Virus record (IMG/VR): IMGVR_UViG_3300046457_000170
Coordinates: 1 to 21,586 of that record
Direction: 5' to 3' (one strand)
DNA: 21,586 nucleotides
Origin: a virus
This document shows positions 3,293 through 13,069 of this stretch, in pieces. A program made the position numbers and the translations under genes. Under the pieces are notes generated by a model. That model ran no database searches, had not been told where the DNA came from, and worked only from the letters and a program-made list of their open reading frames with translations. Numbering within the stretch: position 1 is the stretch's first letter; each line of letters starts with the position of its first letter.

Positions 3293-4992
3293 CAGAACGG
3301 TACGTCCCCGCTCTCGTCTTCGAAGCTGGAGACAGCGCCTCTGTTGCTCTTCTCGCCCTTCTCCGCGAACGGATCAGAGTGGATTTCGCTGAGCCTGCCT
3401 GTCTTGCGATCGTAGGCCAGCCAACCGGCCAGTCCGGTCTCGCCAGTCCATCGGCACTTCAGGACGCGGAGGGTCGTGATCTCCTTGACCAGAAGCGTAA
3501 GTCCCCCAACGGTGACCTCCTCCTCGGACTGCTGATTGCGCTCGATGCCGATGACGGTGTGGGATAGCTGGGCGATCGAATGAGAACCGCGAAGCTGCGC
3601 GAGGGAAACCTCGGCCCCCTGCTCGTGACCTTTGTCACCGCTCGGTCTCTTAAGGTGCGTCACGAGAAAGATCGTGATGTCACATTCGAGAGCCAGGGTG
3701 GCCAGAGCCGTCATGATGAAGTCGATGTTGCGCCGTTCGTCGCCGTCTTCCTGACCACTGACAACGATGCTGAGATGGTCGAGGAAGATGCGCTTACAAC
3801 CGCACCCTTTGGCCAGATACCTGATCTTAGCCAATAGGTTGTCAGAGGATGTTGAACCGAAATGATCGTATAGAAATACACGACCCGAGCCGACCGTCGC
3901 CTCATAGGCTGCCCTCCGTTCCTCTGCAGTAGCGAGATCTTTGTCAAGGTGGATAGGTTTGGACAAACGAATGCCTACGAGGCCCCGCGCTGTCCGCTTG
4001 ATCGGCTCCTCCAACATGAGGATACCGAGGTTGTCTGTGGTCGTCCTGAGAAGGTAGTCCACGGTCTCTCGGATCAGGGCTGACTTGCCCATGCCTGAGC
4101 CAGCGGTGAGCGTCACCACTTCACCAGTTCGGAAGCCCAAGGTCATTTCGTTGATCTTGGTCCACGGGAGGTCGGCCTGCTCCTCCGTGTCGTCCTCTTC
4201 CATGATGTCCCAGAGATCGCTACCGTCCACGATGCCGTCCGGTCGGAGGACCTTGGCACCCCAGAGGCAGTCGATAAGCTCCTTGACCTCACCATGCATG
4301 AGCATTTCGTTGGCGTCCTTGCGAGGAAGGATGGCCGTCTTGCACTTGCCGGGTTCGAACAGTTGGACACATTCGTCAACCGCGTTCCGCCCAGGCTCGT
4401 CCATGTCGAAGCAGAGGATGACCTCGTCGAAGGTGTTGATCCATTCGAGGTTCTTCTTGATCGCGCCCTTGGCACCGTTGGCACCGGTCGGCAGCGACAC
4501 GACAGGCCACTTGTGACCCTGCGCCTTGCTGATGGAGATGGCGTCGATCTCACCTTCCGTGATGATCAGCTTGCGACCACCATCGCGCCACAGATGCATA
4601 CCGTAGAGGCCAGCGTTCTTTGTATCGCCGAGGAACACGAAGTCCTTGCTGGCGGTACGAACCTTCTGAGCGACGATCTGCTGGTTGATGTTGCGGTAGT
4701 TGAAGATGCGAACGGCCTCGCCGCCCATCTCCGATCGAGTGAAGCCCCACTTGGCGGCGCTCTCAAGGTCGATCTTTCGGCTGGACCAGTCGCTGGCCTC
4801 GCCTATTGGTAGGAGGTTCTTGGCCTTGCTCGTAGGTGGAGCTGCCTCGTCATTCTCTTGTATGGTTCCGTCTCCACGTTCTCGATAGCCGCAGCCGAAG
4901 CAGTGGGCATGGCCATCTGAGTATCTGCCAAGGTTGTCTTTGGAACCGCACTTCGGGCACGGCTCCTTTCGGACGAACTCGCTTTCTTGCAA
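3292..4992 (-). CDS. T7 gp4-like primase-helicase
   Basis: At 566 aa it has exactly the length of T7 gp4A. An N-terminal zinc ribbon is formed by C12, C15, C31 and C34. The TOPRIM primase core shows EGEID (146-150) and DMDEPGR (196-202). The DnaB-type helicase half carries Walker A GSGMGKS (298-304), Walker B RIFLDHLS (about 401-408), the VTHLKRP switch (H446) and IERNQQ near R485. The C-terminus is acidic and ends in Phe (EDESGDVPF), as in T7 gp4, where the tail contacts the DNA polymerase. It unwinds DNA and makes RNA primers at the fork. The start is a TTG just after the TAG of the upstream gene with only a weak ribosome site, so it probably depends on coupling. Confidence 0.96.
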   Translation of the reverse strand: MQESEFVRKEPCPKCGSKDNLGRYSDGHAHCFGCGYRERGDGTIQENDEAAPPTSKAKNLLPIGEASDWSSRKIDLESAAKWGFTRSEMGGEAVRIFNYRNINQQIVAQKVRTASKDFVFLGDTKNAGLYGMHLWRDGGRKLIITEGEIDAISISKAQGHKWPVVSLPTGANGAKGAIKKNLEWINTFDEVILCFDMDEPGRNAVDECVQLFEPGKCKTAILPRKDANEMLMHGEVKELIDCLWGAKVLRPDGIVDGSDLWDIMEEDDTEEQADLPWTKINEMTLGFRTGEVVTLTAGSGMGKSALIRETVDYLLRTTTDNLGILMLEEPIKRTARGLVGIRLSKPIHLDKDLATAEERRAAYEATVGSGRVFLYDHFGSTSSDNLLAKIRYLAKGCGCKRIFLDHLSIVVSGQEDGDERRNIDFIMTALATLALECDITIFLVTHLKRPSGDKGHEQGAEVSLAQLRGSHSIAQLSHTVIGIERNQQSEEEVTVGGLTLLVKEITTLRVLKCRWTGETGLAGWLAYDRKTGRLSEIHSDPFAEKGEKSNRGAVSSFEDESGDVPF

Positions 4993-8009: not shown

Positions 8010-8029
8010 TGCAACAGTGAAGACGTTTA
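8010..8029 (-). promoter_or_regulatory. Phage RNA polymerase promoter after the RNAP gene
   Basis: The minus strand reads TAAACGTCTTCACTGTTGCA, close to the copy before SSB and to the copy inside the Gly/Ser-rich gene (17 of 20). It begins with the TAA stop codon of the RNA polymerase gene. The position matches the first class II promoter of T7, just after gene 1. Confidence 0.82.
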
Positions 8030-10492
8030 GGCGAAGAAATATTTGGCTCTCAGCACCTCCTTGATATCGAGGGTTCCCATGGGTGGCCTCGGTTTGATTT
8101 CGCTGTCTTCGGTGTCGAGCATGTTGAGGAAGTCGGACAGGACATCCCCTCGGTACATCTCGACGAACTCGTAGCGGAGCAGGTTGGACAGCTTGGTCGC
8201 ATTGCAGGCATGAGTGCCATAGCTGTCGTGGATCATGGCAAACGAGGTGACACCCCGTAAGGCCAGTGCGATGACGGTGCGGAACAGAGCCGCCGCGTCT
8301 AGGCTGTGGACGAAGTTTGGACTGATCGACGTCGCCTGCTTGGACGAGTTGATCCTATCGCCCTCCTCGGGGAGCCTCGGCCTGACCATCACACCGTGCA
8401 GCTTGGTCTTGATCTGACGGCTGGTGATCTCCCGGATGTCCTGATAGGCGACGAACCCTGAGGGCGTCTCCCATGCAAGGGGCCGGTTCTCCTTGGATAG
8501 TTCACGAGCGACACTCTGCAGCCAAGCCATGGCATCACGGGCAGCCACGACGACATCGCCGATGCTTTCCCAGATGATGGTGCTCAGGAAGCCTGTTGCC
8601 TTCCCCAGCTCCTCGCCGAAGTTGTGATCCTGGCCGTCCTTGATCCTCTCAGCCACGGCCTCTTGGACGTACTTGAGGCAGGACCGAGGCGTTCCACCGT
8701 ATGGCAGCACCATGACAGGACGCTTGGTGATCTTCCGGTTGAGCCCGAAGTGGACCCAGCCTTCCGCCCAGCGCTGCCTGTCGAATGGCGTTGGCTTGCC
8801 ATCCTTTTGCGCTTCGTCAACTACTGCATCAGTGCAAGCAATTAGACGGAGCTTCGCCATGGCAACGTCCGCAACACGCTGGTAGATGTCCTGCGGCTTC
8901 TCGCTGTCCGTGAGGTTGACCGCCACGCCACCGACGCTGTCCCTCAGCATTGCCGAGAAGTGCTGCAGTCCGTTGCATGAGCCGTCGAGCGCCACAGGGA
9001 TGTGCGACACGAAGTCAGGGTGATCCCGCTTGCCCCACTCGAAGCAGAACGCGAGGAAGCACCAAGGGCTGTCGGCCTTCATCCACCATTTGAACCCGAG
9101 AGGATCATTGCAGACCGCACGGATCAGCATCTCGTTGTCAGCTACCCATTCCACCCGCTCGTCGAAGCTGACCTTGTCCACCCCGAAGCAGTTCGCCCCG
9201 TGAATGGCCAGCCAGCGTTCACCATCGTCACCGAGAGGAAGACCTTCGGAGAACCGAAGCAACCCCTTGACCACGTCGGTCCCCTGCGGATGCAGAAGTG
9301 CCGGGATAGGATACGCACGTCCCCTGAAGTCGAGGTTGTGCGGGAAGTAGATGTGCGGCTCATGCTCGAACCGCTTGACGACGTCCATGAGATCGCCCTG
9401 CCCCTTGCGGGCCAGCTTCAGCGCATAGTTCTCGTTGTGGACGTCCCTCGCCGCCCAGCGCCACGCCTTAGCAGCATCCGGGTTGATGTCGATGTCTGGC
9501 GGTTTGTTCGGTAGCGGGATGTCTTCCAGACTGACCAGCCCCGCCTCACCCGAGCCCACAGCCATCAGCTCACGCATGACTTCGAGGACTTGTGGGTTGA
9601 TCTGCCATGCCGTGTTCTGGATGGCGTTGAGGCCAGCGTAGACCCTCGTCAGGTCTGCCTTTTCGAGCAGCTTGCGATGCTCTGACCGGGGTCGCTTCAC
9701 CAGAGGCAGGGGCCGGATGGCGTTGGAGAAGTATCCGCCTCCAGAGAGGGCCGACCAAGGCTTGGGGTGGATGACGGTCGGCATGAAGAACTGAGATAGC
9801 TCCTCGCCCTTCAGGGCTGCCGCCTCGACCCACTTGGCTGCCTTCTCGGTGATCTGAACGACGTACTGGTCAACGCGGGTATCCTTGTCCGCGCTGTCGG
9901 CACCTGTGAGGATCTCAGCCAGGGCGGTGGTATCCGCGAACAGCTCGATCATCTTGAAGCCGAGGTGCAGTCGATCGGTAGAAGACCAGCGGTCCCACGG
10001 AACCTCGTACTTACCCATGGCATAGGCCAGCACGGTGCGTTTGTGGGCGTCGGTCGCCCCGTCCTTCTTCAGCCGGTCCTCGACGAGCCGGAACTGATCC
10101 CTGTGTTCGGTCTCGAACTTGTTGAAGCGAGCCTCGTCCTCCAGCGCTGACGCCACGAGGCGGGACAGTGTGGTGAAGCCGACTGCCTTCTTCGACAGCA
10201 AGCGATTGAGGATGACGCGGGTGACGATCAGGGACACGGCGCTGTAGTTCATGCCCTTGATCAGCTTGGCCGCGACCGCCTTCGGCCCCGGCTTACCAGA
10301 GTAGACCCCGTCGACAAAGGCCTCGATAGCCCCCGCCAGTGGACGAATGGCCCTCTTCACGAGAACGCTGCCGCCGTCAGTCTGCGAGCCGCGATCCTGC
10401 GCGATGTTCTTGTCGTACTGAACGCGGAACCTCTCTGTGCCGAGGCCCGCCATGGTTATCTCAAGTTGGATTTGGCGTTCGTATGGTGTCAC
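8027..10492 (-). CDS. T7-type single-subunit DNA-dependent RNA polymerase
   Basis: This 821-aa protein (T7 gp1 is 883 aa) transcribes the middle and late phage genes. Motifs seen: DFRGRAYP (388-395, T7 DWRGRVY); motif A PVALDGSCNGLQHF with D503; motif B RKITKRPVMVLPYGGT with K590 and Y598 (T7 K631 and Y639); SPNFVHSLD (724-732); and motif C MIHDSYGTH with D756 (T7 D812). The C-terminus ends KYFFA, like FAFA of T7. The specificity-loop region lies at about 695-722 and should read the CACTRTYGCA-type promoters. The GTG start has AAGGA at five bases and overlaps the 65-aa gene by 32 bases. Full length, with no missing catalytic residue. Confidence 0.98.
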   Translation of the reverse strand: MTPYERQIQLEITMAGLGTERFRVQYDKNIAQDRGSQTDGGSVLVKRAIRPLAGAIEAFVDGVYSGKPGPKAVAAKLIKGMNYSAVSLIVTRVILNRLLSKKAVGFTTLSRLVASALEDEARFNKFETEHRDQFRLVEDRLKKDGATDAHKRTVLAYAMGKYEVPWDRWSSTDRLHLGFKMIELFADTTALAEILTGADSADKDTRVDQYVVQITEKAAKWVEAAALKGEELSQFFMPTVIHPKPWSALSGGGYFSNAIRPLPLVKRPRSEHRKLLEKADLTRVYAGLNAIQNTAWQINPQVLEVMRELMAVGSGEAGLVSLEDIPLPNKPPDIDINPDAAKAWRWAARDVHNENYALKLARKGQGDLMDVVKRFEHEPHIYFPHNLDFRGRAYPIPALLHPQGTDVVKGLLRFSEGLPLGDDGERWLAIHGANCFGVDKVSFDERVEWVADNEMLIRAVCNDPLGFKWWMKADSPWCFLAFCFEWGKRDHPDFVSHIPVALDGSCNGLQHFSAMLRDSVGGVAVNLTDSEKPQDIYQRVADVAMAKLRLIACTDAVVDEAQKDGKPTPFDRQRWAEGWVHFGLNRKITKRPVMVLPYGGTPRSCLKYVQEAVAERIKDGQDHNFGEELGKATGFLSTIIWESIGDVVVAARDAMAWLQSVARELSKENRPLAWETPSGFVAYQDIREITSRQIKTKLHGVMVRPRLPEEGDRINSSKQATSISPNFVHSLDAAALFRTVIALALRGVTSFAMIHDSYGTHACNATKLSNLLRYEFVEMYRGDVLSDFLNMLDTEDSEIKPRPPMGTLDIKEVLRAKYFFA

Positions 10493-11987: not shown

Positions 11988-12165
11988 AGTGGGAACCTCG
12001 GAAGACCGAGAGAAGCATGAGGTAGACCAGCGCGATCACGCCCCCAACCAAGCCCACCCCGAAGCACAGGCCGAGAATTGCCGCGAAGGTCTGACTGGCA
12101 AGGGCACCGGCGAGTAGCGCGAACCAGAGGATGATTAACCCTGCTGCTAAAAGATGAGGCCTCAT
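11980..12165 (-). CDS. Small two-helix membrane protein, 61 aa
   Basis: I choose the ATG at 12165, which overlaps the TGA of the Gly/Ser-rich gene (ATGA), over the longer frame to 12210. After MRPH come two hydrophobic segments (about residues 5-25 and 29-54: LLAAGLIILWFALLAGALA and AAILGLCFGVGLVGGVIALV) and a short polar end. It predicts a hairpin in the inner membrane, and its size and topology would suit a holin or an exclusion protein, but nothing specific supports either. It lies downstream of the internal promoter at 12315-12334. Confidence 0.6.
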   Translation of the reverse strand: MRPHLLAAGLIILWFALLAGALASQTFAAILGLCFGVGLVGGVIALVYLMLLSVFRGSHYG

Positions 12166-12662
12166 GCGAAGGCCCCCTTCCGATTGCTCGAGCGGCGGAT
12201 GAGCCACCAAACGAGACCGCCGAGACCGATGGCGATCAGGAACGAACCGAAGAGCCCGATGCCGCCGTCCTCAGGTTCCTGCTCGATGACCGGTGCTGGC
12301 GTTGGTGCAATAGGTGCAACAGTGGAGACGTTCGGAGAAATGGCAGGCGCAGTTGCACCCCCTTGTGGCACGACAACGACAGTAGGTGCCGCCGGTGCCT
12401 GCGCGTGTGATCCTGAGTTCCCCAGCAGGTATCCCCACAGGAACCCGCTCGAACCCATCCCACCGCCACCGTAGTTGTGGTTCTGGATGACGGTCGTATT
12501 GCGGCTGGAATAGCTGGAACTGGGACGAGAGTAGGAGCGGCTGAAGCTGCCCGAAGACCGGAAGCCACTCGAACGAAAGCCACCGCCGCCACCCCTGAAA
12601 CCAGCGTGAGCCGGGGCTGCGAGAACGGCCAGAATTGCTACTGCTGAGGCAAGTTTCTTCAT
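12162..12662 (-). CDS. Exported Gly/Ser-rich membrane-anchored protein, 166 aa
   Basis: I choose the ATG at 12662 (AAAAGGAT upstream) because it gives a textbook signal peptide: MKKLASAVAILAVLAAPAHA, with cleavage after AHA. The mature part begins with Gly-, Ser-, Arg- and Tyr-rich low-complexity sequence (GFRGGGGGFRSSGFRSSG, then SFSRSYSRPSSSYSS), continues with Ala/Pro/Val/Thr-rich sequence, and ends in a transmembrane helix (about 140-157) with a basic tail (RRSSNRK). It looks like a host-type envelope protein rather than a T7 core gene. Between attP and the RNA polymerase region it may be a lysogenic-conversion or exclusion gene. Function unknown. Confidence 0.72.
   Translation of the reverse strand: MKKLASAVAILAVLAAPAHAGFRGGGGGFRSSGFRSSGSFSRSYSRPSSSYSSRNTTVIQNHNYGGGGMGSSGFLWGYLLGNSGSHAQAPAAPTVVVVPQGGATAPAISPNVSTVAPIAPTPAPVIEQEPEDGGIGLFGSFLIAIGLGGLVWWLIRRSSNRKGAFA
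12315..12334 (-). promoter_or_regulatory. Promoter motif inside the Gly/Ser-rich gene
   Basis: The minus strand reads CGAACGTCTCCACTGTTGCA, 17 of 20 identical to the copy after the RNA polymerase gene. It lies in coding sequence for NVSTVA. It points to the genes at 12165 and below, including RNA polymerase itself. Confidence 0.62.
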
Positions 12663-12700
12663 ATTTTCCCATCCTTTTTTCCCATTGGGGATTTTCCCAC

Positions 12701-12720
12701 AAATCTGTTGCACTATTGCA
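12701..12720 (+). promoter_or_regulatory. Promoter motif on the plus strand (1)
   Basis: The plus strand reads AAATCTGTTGCACTATTGCA. From the tenth base it is nearly identical to the minus-strand copy at 17926-17945. Transcription would run towards tRNA-Leu and int, antisense to both. TTGCA-CTAT-TGCAA is also a small palindrome, so a protein-binding site is an alternative. Confidence 0.55.
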
Positions 12721-12777
12721 AGTATCCATTTTCCCATGGAGGACCTGCGCTAGTGGGCTGTAATTATTTCGCTTTGT

Positions 12778-12797
12778 GAGATGTTTGCACTATCGAG
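12778..12797 (+). promoter_or_regulatory. Promoter motif on the plus strand (2)
   Basis: The plus strand reads GAGATGTTTGCACTATCGAG, close to the copy at 18697-18716 (AGATGTTT and CACTRTCG shared). It lies 77 bases after the other plus-strand copy and, like it, reads into the antisense strand of tRNA-Leu and int. Confidence 0.5.
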
Positions 12798-12806
12798 AAG
12801 GTTGCG

Positions 12807-12838
12807 GGTGGGAACCTAAATCTGGTCCATGGGAAAAT
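12807..12838. other. Putative attP core (tRNA-Leu anticodon-loop identity)
   Basis: On the minus strand 12826-12812 reads ACCAGATTTAGGTTC. This equals the anticodon stem-loop of the common bacterial tRNA-Leu(UAG), stem CCAGA, loop UUUAGGU (from my knowledge of E. coli leuW). A 12-base part (GGAACCTAAATC on the plus strand) also occurs in the phage tRNA at 12892-12903. An inverted ATTTTCCCA site adjoins. Tyrosine integrases often cross over in a tRNA anticodon loop. Core limits are inferred. Confidence 0.5.
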
Positions 12839-12844
12839 CCTGGC

Positions 12845-12933
12845 TGGTGCGGCTGAGGAGACTCGAACTCCTAAGCCCTTGAAAAGGCACTGGAACCTAA
12901 ATCCAGCATGTCTACCAATTCCATCACAGCCGC
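12845..12933 (-). tRNA. tRNA-Leu (anticodon UAG), complete with encoded CCA
   Basis: The minus strand folds into a full class II tRNA. The acceptor arm is GCGGCTG with CAGCCGC, seven pairs, followed by A and the encoded CCA. A D arm with GGAATTGGTAGAC, the anticodon arm CTGGA-TTTAGGT-TCCAG (anticodon TAG), a long variable arm (GCCTT/AAGGGC) and the T arm AGGAG-TTCGAGT-CTCCT are all present without mismatch in the main stems. It lies downstream of int in the same orientation, next to the putative attachment site. It is not just a 3' fragment, as in many attP sites, so it is probably a working tRNA. It reads CUA and other CUN codons. Confidence 0.95.
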
Positions 12934-13069
12934 TGAGCCGATTTTATCCCATGGGAGAAATTCTCCCACCCATTTTCCCACACCTGACCGGTCTTTCGGA
13001 CCTAAGCAAATCTTGTGTGGAACACCAAGTGTCGGGCGTGTACCGCCGCAGCCCTTGGCAGTCAAGGCT

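Follow-up and report, generated by a model that had tools for sequence, protein, structure and literature searches.

Gene content and layout of the locus

The window, by which is meant the whole 21.6-kb virus record analysed here (57.6% GC), is that of a T7-like phage of the Autographiviridae, carrying both a single-subunit RNA polymerase and T7-type replication genes. The polymerase gene (8027-10492, minus strand; Pfam PF00940, E 2e-104) lies downstream of the attachment region, and the closest RNA polymerase of a named phage is that of Mesorhizobium phage Lo5R7ANS, at 52.8%. Further Pfam matches identify a family A DNA polymerase (DNA_pol_A) and a T7 primase-helicase, and the PHROG families represented include a Gp2.5-like SSB, an endonuclease and a terminase. 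A GP88-family protein (PF17338; 17065-17988, minus strand) is kept in two close relatives (L002 and L003) as well as in L012, L014 and L047.

The genes of the attachment region are read from the minus strand, in the order MarR-like regulator (14405-14055), integrase (14062-13070), tRNA-Leu(UAG) (12933-12845) and, after 18 bp, the core site (12826-12812). The winged-helix regulator, the gene for which overlaps the integrase start, matches PHROG 9665 (E 6.5e-30), with Pfam MarR_2/HTH_27 falling under the cut-off, and is likely to be a lysis-lysogeny regulator. The 330-aa integrase is of the tyrosine type (Pfam PF00589, E 1.4e-14; PHROG 1 integrase), with arginine, histidine and tyrosine columns that are invariant in 13 relatives, and 80% identity to the enzymes of L002 and L003. 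Beyond the core lie unrelated DNA and a gene for a small Gly/Ser-rich protein (12162-12737, minus strand) with an apparent signal peptide. This protein has no match in Pfam or PHROG, and is kept in L002 and L003 at 56-59%.

The core site and the phage tRNA

At 12812-12826 on the minus strand, ACCAGATTTAGGTTC, which occurs once in the record, reproduces the 5′ half of the anticodon stem and the loop of host tRNA-Leu(UAG), as the sequence-only reading had recognised. Identity to the tRNA ends after TTC, and what comes next is CCACCCGCAACC, without any tRNA 3′ half; compared with CCAGA-type anticodon arms, the core is 14-15 bp long. As all 15 bases are retained in L002 and L003 between flanking segments that have diverged, and as the same layout is seen again in many diverged phages, the match exceeds chance.

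ARAGORN finds a single tRNA in the window, a complete tRNA-Leu(UAG) at 12845-12933 on the minus strand, with an acceptor arm of GCGGCTG/CAGCCGC, discriminator A, encoded CCA and an anticodon arm reading CTGGA-TTTAGGT-TCCAG. Inspection of the arms, which are intact, and the RNA fold agree with this assignment. In L002 and L003 the anticodon stem CTGGA/TCCAG is replaced by CGGGA/TCCCG, a paired substitution that preserves pairing and is thus expected of a working tRNA. The gene had also been described as adjacent to the core, which holds, and as 19 bases from it, where the actual spacing is 18 bp (12844-12827). A weak candidate promoter for the tRNA lies at 13037-13065 on the minus strand (TTGACT, 17 bp, TACACG; TAAACG in L002 and L003), and a scan for sigma-70 promoters and terminators around the tRNA called none. 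TTGACT is kept in both relatives, and in L002 an insertion of ~190 bp after the integrase gene leaves it with the tRNA. This extra segment (L002 5990-6190), placed between the integrase gene and the conserved TTGACT, contains a small ORF.

Putative integrase arm sites

All six exact copies of TTTTCCCA in the window fall inside 12655-12990 (binomial P 1.4e-11), with one-base variants adjoining them, and these repeats are putatively the arm sites of the integrase, to judge from their placement. A P-side cluster (12664-12736, plus strand) has copies at 12664, 12677, 12692 and 12729, and overlaps the start of the Gly/Ser-rich protein gene; a lone copy (12830-12837, minus strand) lies between core and tRNA; and a P′-side cluster (12943-12980), comprising TTTATCCCA at 12943, TGGGAGAA at 12952, TTCTCCCA at 12961 and TTTTCCCA at 12973, is found just upstream of the tRNA and is kept in L002 and L003. 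Similar sites, of the form TTTCCCAC/GTGGGA, are present in L047. With arm-like repeats on both sides of the core, the tRNA gene would therefore lie inside attP.

Attachment junctions in relatives

Integration at such a core was predicted to split the host gene, and junctions of this kind were read in three relatives, the integrases of which are only 29-42% identical to that of the window. The attR of L014 runs from integrase through tRNA-Leu(UAG) and the core AGATTTAGGT into TTCCAGTGCCGAAAGGCGTGGAGGTTCGAGTCCTCTCATCCGCACCA, the 3′ half of a host tRNA, after which comes a non-phage autotransporter-like gene. L014 resembles the window in TerL (65%), in GP88 (62%) and in having the MarR-like/integrase cassette, and a search of the viral contigs for its host 3′ half returned L014 itself only. 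At the attR of L047 (integrase 42% identical), a phage tRNA-Leu(UAA) and the core are followed by a 3′ half belonging to a host tRNA-Leu(UAA); the attL was looked for at the far end of this record and not found. The complementary junction comes from L146, another integrase relative, in which a host tRNA-Leu(UAG) is represented by its 5′ half, GCGGGTATGG...ACGCCAGATTTAGGTTCTG, and the core, after which comes phage DNA that is not tRNA; ARAGORN calls no complete tRNA there. Together, these junctions bear out, in relatives, both the splitting of a host tRNA-Leu within its anticodon loop and the supply by the phage of a replacement with the same anticodon.

The proposed search for prophages with the window integrase, a screen of 385 alphaproteobacterial genomes run without a positive control, gave no match at E<=1e-30; the junctions of the predicted form come from relatives. 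A tRNA-anchored pattern for a lysogen of the exact window phage, run over 84,980 genomes, gave 14 matches, none of which was judged a lysogen; to go by the 110 bases past the site, each resembles an undamaged host tRNA that happens to have TTTAGGT downstream. A pattern of two copies of GATTTAGGTTC returned mostly low-complexity coding repeats in viral contigs, and L005, L006 and L008 were inspected and rejected.

Host tRNA-Leu(UAG) genes and the anticodon stem

In a sample of Alphaproteobacteria, a tRNA-Leu(UAG) pattern gave exactly one match in each of the 36 genomes that matched. Without tRNA-Leu(UAG), CUA codons go unread, and splitting the gene should consequently remove the host's only CUA-reading tRNA. 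Since the host tRNA is seen to be broken in relatives, a replacement would be needed.

The anticodon stem had been taken to be CCAGA/TCTGG in the usual bacterial gene. This stem is indeed present in 11 of the 36 genomes, but CTGGA/TCCAG, the phage's own stem, occurs in six, and is therefore an ordinary host stem. The distinction bears on the proposal, also made in PMC8631192, that selection altered the phage tRNA stem so that the phage's own integrase would not target it. Such self-protection would add to a replacement role and is compatible with it; as the main design feature, we regard it as doubtful. The 5′ stem does differ (CTGGA in the tRNA, CCAGA in the core), and in Lo5R7ANS, L052, L019, L017, RHEph01, RHEph21 and L079 the tRNA and core share only the 7-bp loop. 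In the window, however, the two have 12 bp in common (GATTTAGGTTCC), as they do in L076, and 13 bp are shared in L002 and L003. A host of the CTGGA type matches the core over the same 12 bp as the phage's own tRNA does, and the TCCAG of the host 3′ half at the attR of L014 implies an attB with a CTGGA/TCCAG arm. The suggestion that a changed stem hides the tRNA from the integrase is accordingly poorly supported and weak for the window phage; it is plausible for Lo5R7ANS-like and RHEph01-like phages, where the fit is better because only the loop is shared.

Anticodon concordance across phages

Among phages ascertained through their integrase and carrying a nearby tRNA-Leu, all 20 have the same anticodon in the phage tRNA and in the core, although these include close relatives and do not amount to 20 independent lineages. 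In the attachment region, UAG tRNAs accompany UAG-type cores in 9/9 cases, and UAA tRNAs accompany UAA-type cores in 11/11. L013, L015 and L017-L019 were left out of the count, as the pattern that found them demanded a core. The core of Pasto, 175 bp from its tRNA, was seen in the first concordance pass and falls outside the narrower region examined in the second. One UAA phage, L134, has an additional stray TTTAGGT. The tRNA-Leu(UAG) of L100 (2309-2394) has an unusual loop, CTTAGGA, and its core at 2547 reads GATTTAGGTT, giving the same anticodon in a different loop. T7-like integrase phages without a tRNA in the regions inspected are CRP-118, 804, 403, 361, 171, BB8, ProddE, S-TIP37 and S-SRP01.

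Concordance extends to phages with a different gene order. In RHEph01, RHEph21, LUZ100 and L061, the tRNA lies upstream of the integrase gene, ~1.1-1.2 kb from the core, and the anticodons still agree. The tRNA-Leu(UAG) genes of RHEph21 (L041 1487-1571) and RHEph01 (L044 2894-2978), just upstream of the integrase gene, are unannotated in these GenBank records, and the matching core is 1.1 kb away, past the integrase gene. The tRNA-Leu(UAA) of LUZ100 (L042 2658-2743) pairs with the core GACTTAAAA at 3916-3925, between the integrase and RNA polymerase genes.

A remnant origin has been proposed for the tRNA-Leu of LUZ100 and for those of pelagiphages (PMC10134795), and by extension the tRNA of the window could have been left behind by imprecise excision, as a relic of past integration with no function in lysogeny. 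Its position beside the attachment site is what such an origin would leave, but the tRNA is complete, its stem changes in pairs among close relatives, the host gene broken in relatives calls for a replacement, and the core anticodon is matched in every one of the 20 phages, even where tRNA and core are far apart. We therefore consider a remnant very unlikely here, and for LUZ100 too, the concordance suggests something other than the published reading.

Also very unlikely is that the tRNA serves lytic growth, by assisting translation of CUA codons or by replacing tRNAs cut by host defences, and lies near attP incidentally. Roles of both sorts have been suggested for phage tRNAs in general, the latter in the discussion of PMC10865867. 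CUA accounts for 20 of the 424 Leu codons of the phage (4.7%), and for 0.40% of codons overall, where base composition predicts 0.65%, a rarity that argues against a translation-boosting role; furthermore, the isoacceptor always tracks the att core.

A probable tRNA-dependent route to lysogeny

The reading that best accommodates these results, to which we assign a probability of roughly 0.87, is that the window holds the attP of a temperate T7-like phage using tRNA-dependent lysogeny at host tRNA-Leu(UAG), the likeliest host being a rhizobium-like alphaproteobacterium. The direct observations behind it are the core, tRNA, integrase and arm-like repeats of the window, the attL and attR of relatives, and the concordance of anticodons across phages. 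Several features of tRNA-dependent lysogeny are found together: a tyrosine integrase; a phage tRNA with the isotype and anticodon of the target gene; a short core matching the inside of a host tRNA gene, which integration would not restore, the broken gene having been seen in relatives only; and putative arm-type sites flanking the core, as suggested by the clustering of TTTTCCCA around it.

The integrase would bind the TTTTCCCA-type arm sites to either side of the short core, which would recombine with the identical stretch of the host gene's anticodon loop. The host tRNA-Leu would be split in two, the 5′ half ending up at attL and the 3′ half at attR, and the complete phage tRNA-Leu(UAG) would come to lie beside the 3′ half at attR, from where it could take over CUA decoding and keep the lysogen alive. 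Integration of the window phage itself by this route, expression of its tRNA in the lysogen and the need for it there, and the identity of the host are inferences. The main idea of the sequence-only reading, a prophage that breaks a host tRNA and brings its own, is in this way well supported, and its interpretation as a whole partly so.

On balance, it also seems probable that temperate T7-like phages of Alpha-, Beta- and Gammaproteobacteria, pelagiphages included, commonly integrate by tRNA-Leu-dependent lysogeny, and that whenever the anticodon-loop core changes between UAG and UAA, the phage tRNA changes with it. LUZ100, Pasto and HTVC119P, among others, have tRNA-Leu genes which the literature examined either notes as remnants or leaves unexplained, and which would then be lysogeny genes. 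This would explain simply why temperate T7-like phages have a single tRNA-Leu, and it predicts the host gene that each of them breaks. Should the tRNA prove necessary, T7-like phages seemingly unable to lysogenize in the laboratory could be examined afresh, with both the attB and the tRNA requirement defined. For the window alone the value is modest, as neither the principle nor even the site is new.

Comparison with known systems

The principle of tRNA-dependent lysogeny has been proven in mycobacteriophages, with genetic tests of the need for the tRNA (PMC10865867). The actinobacteriophages Fionnbharth, LeBron and Gaia share with the window a tyrosine integrase, a phage tRNA matching the target gene in isotype, arm sites around the core, and a core that is short and falls within a host tRNA gene left unrestored. 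They differ in using tRNA-Lys, Ile2 or Leu-CAA in Actinobacteria, whereas the window concerns tRNA-Leu(UAG) in a T7-like phage.

The site itself was described in 2021, when CAGATTTAGGTT was reported at the ends of Rhizobium prophages, and also in the tRNA-Leu of phage-free strains; a phage tRNA-Leu lacking this motif was proposed presumably to replace the broken gene and to prevent super-integration (PMC8631192), so that both replacement and the avoidance of self-integration had already been put forward. These vTRX32-1-like Rhizobium phages, which include RHEph01, are likewise temperate and T7-like, with the 12-bp CAGATTTAGGTT as att site in the host tRNA-Leu and a complete phage tRNA-Leu. Their tRNA, however, lies upstream of the integrase gene, 1.1 kb from the core, rather than 18 bp from it inside attP, and their arm-site sequence differs. 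With an integrase about 24-25% and an RNA polymerase 37% identical to those of vTRX32-1 and RHEph01, the window phage falls outside the close relatedness that defines the group.

Mesorhizobium phage vB_MloP_Lo5R7ANS has the same arrangement of integrase, tRNA-Leu(UAG), short gap and core (AGATTTAGGTTC), with repeats on both sides, but its integrase is 30% identical, its arm-like repeats read TGACAAA and its tRNA stem is CTTGG/CCAAG. In this phage, genes for a BglII-like restriction enzyme and a methylase stand between integrase and tRNA, and a gene annotated as RtcB (RNA ligase) is found near the tRNA-Leu (L012 7319-7972). The roseophage CRP-810, for which integration has been demonstrated by PCR (PMC11288001), offers a further parallel, with 13 bp that match the middle part of a host tRNA gene and an adjoining phage copy of the same tRNA, although here the tRNA is tRNA-Thr and the phage belongs to another family.
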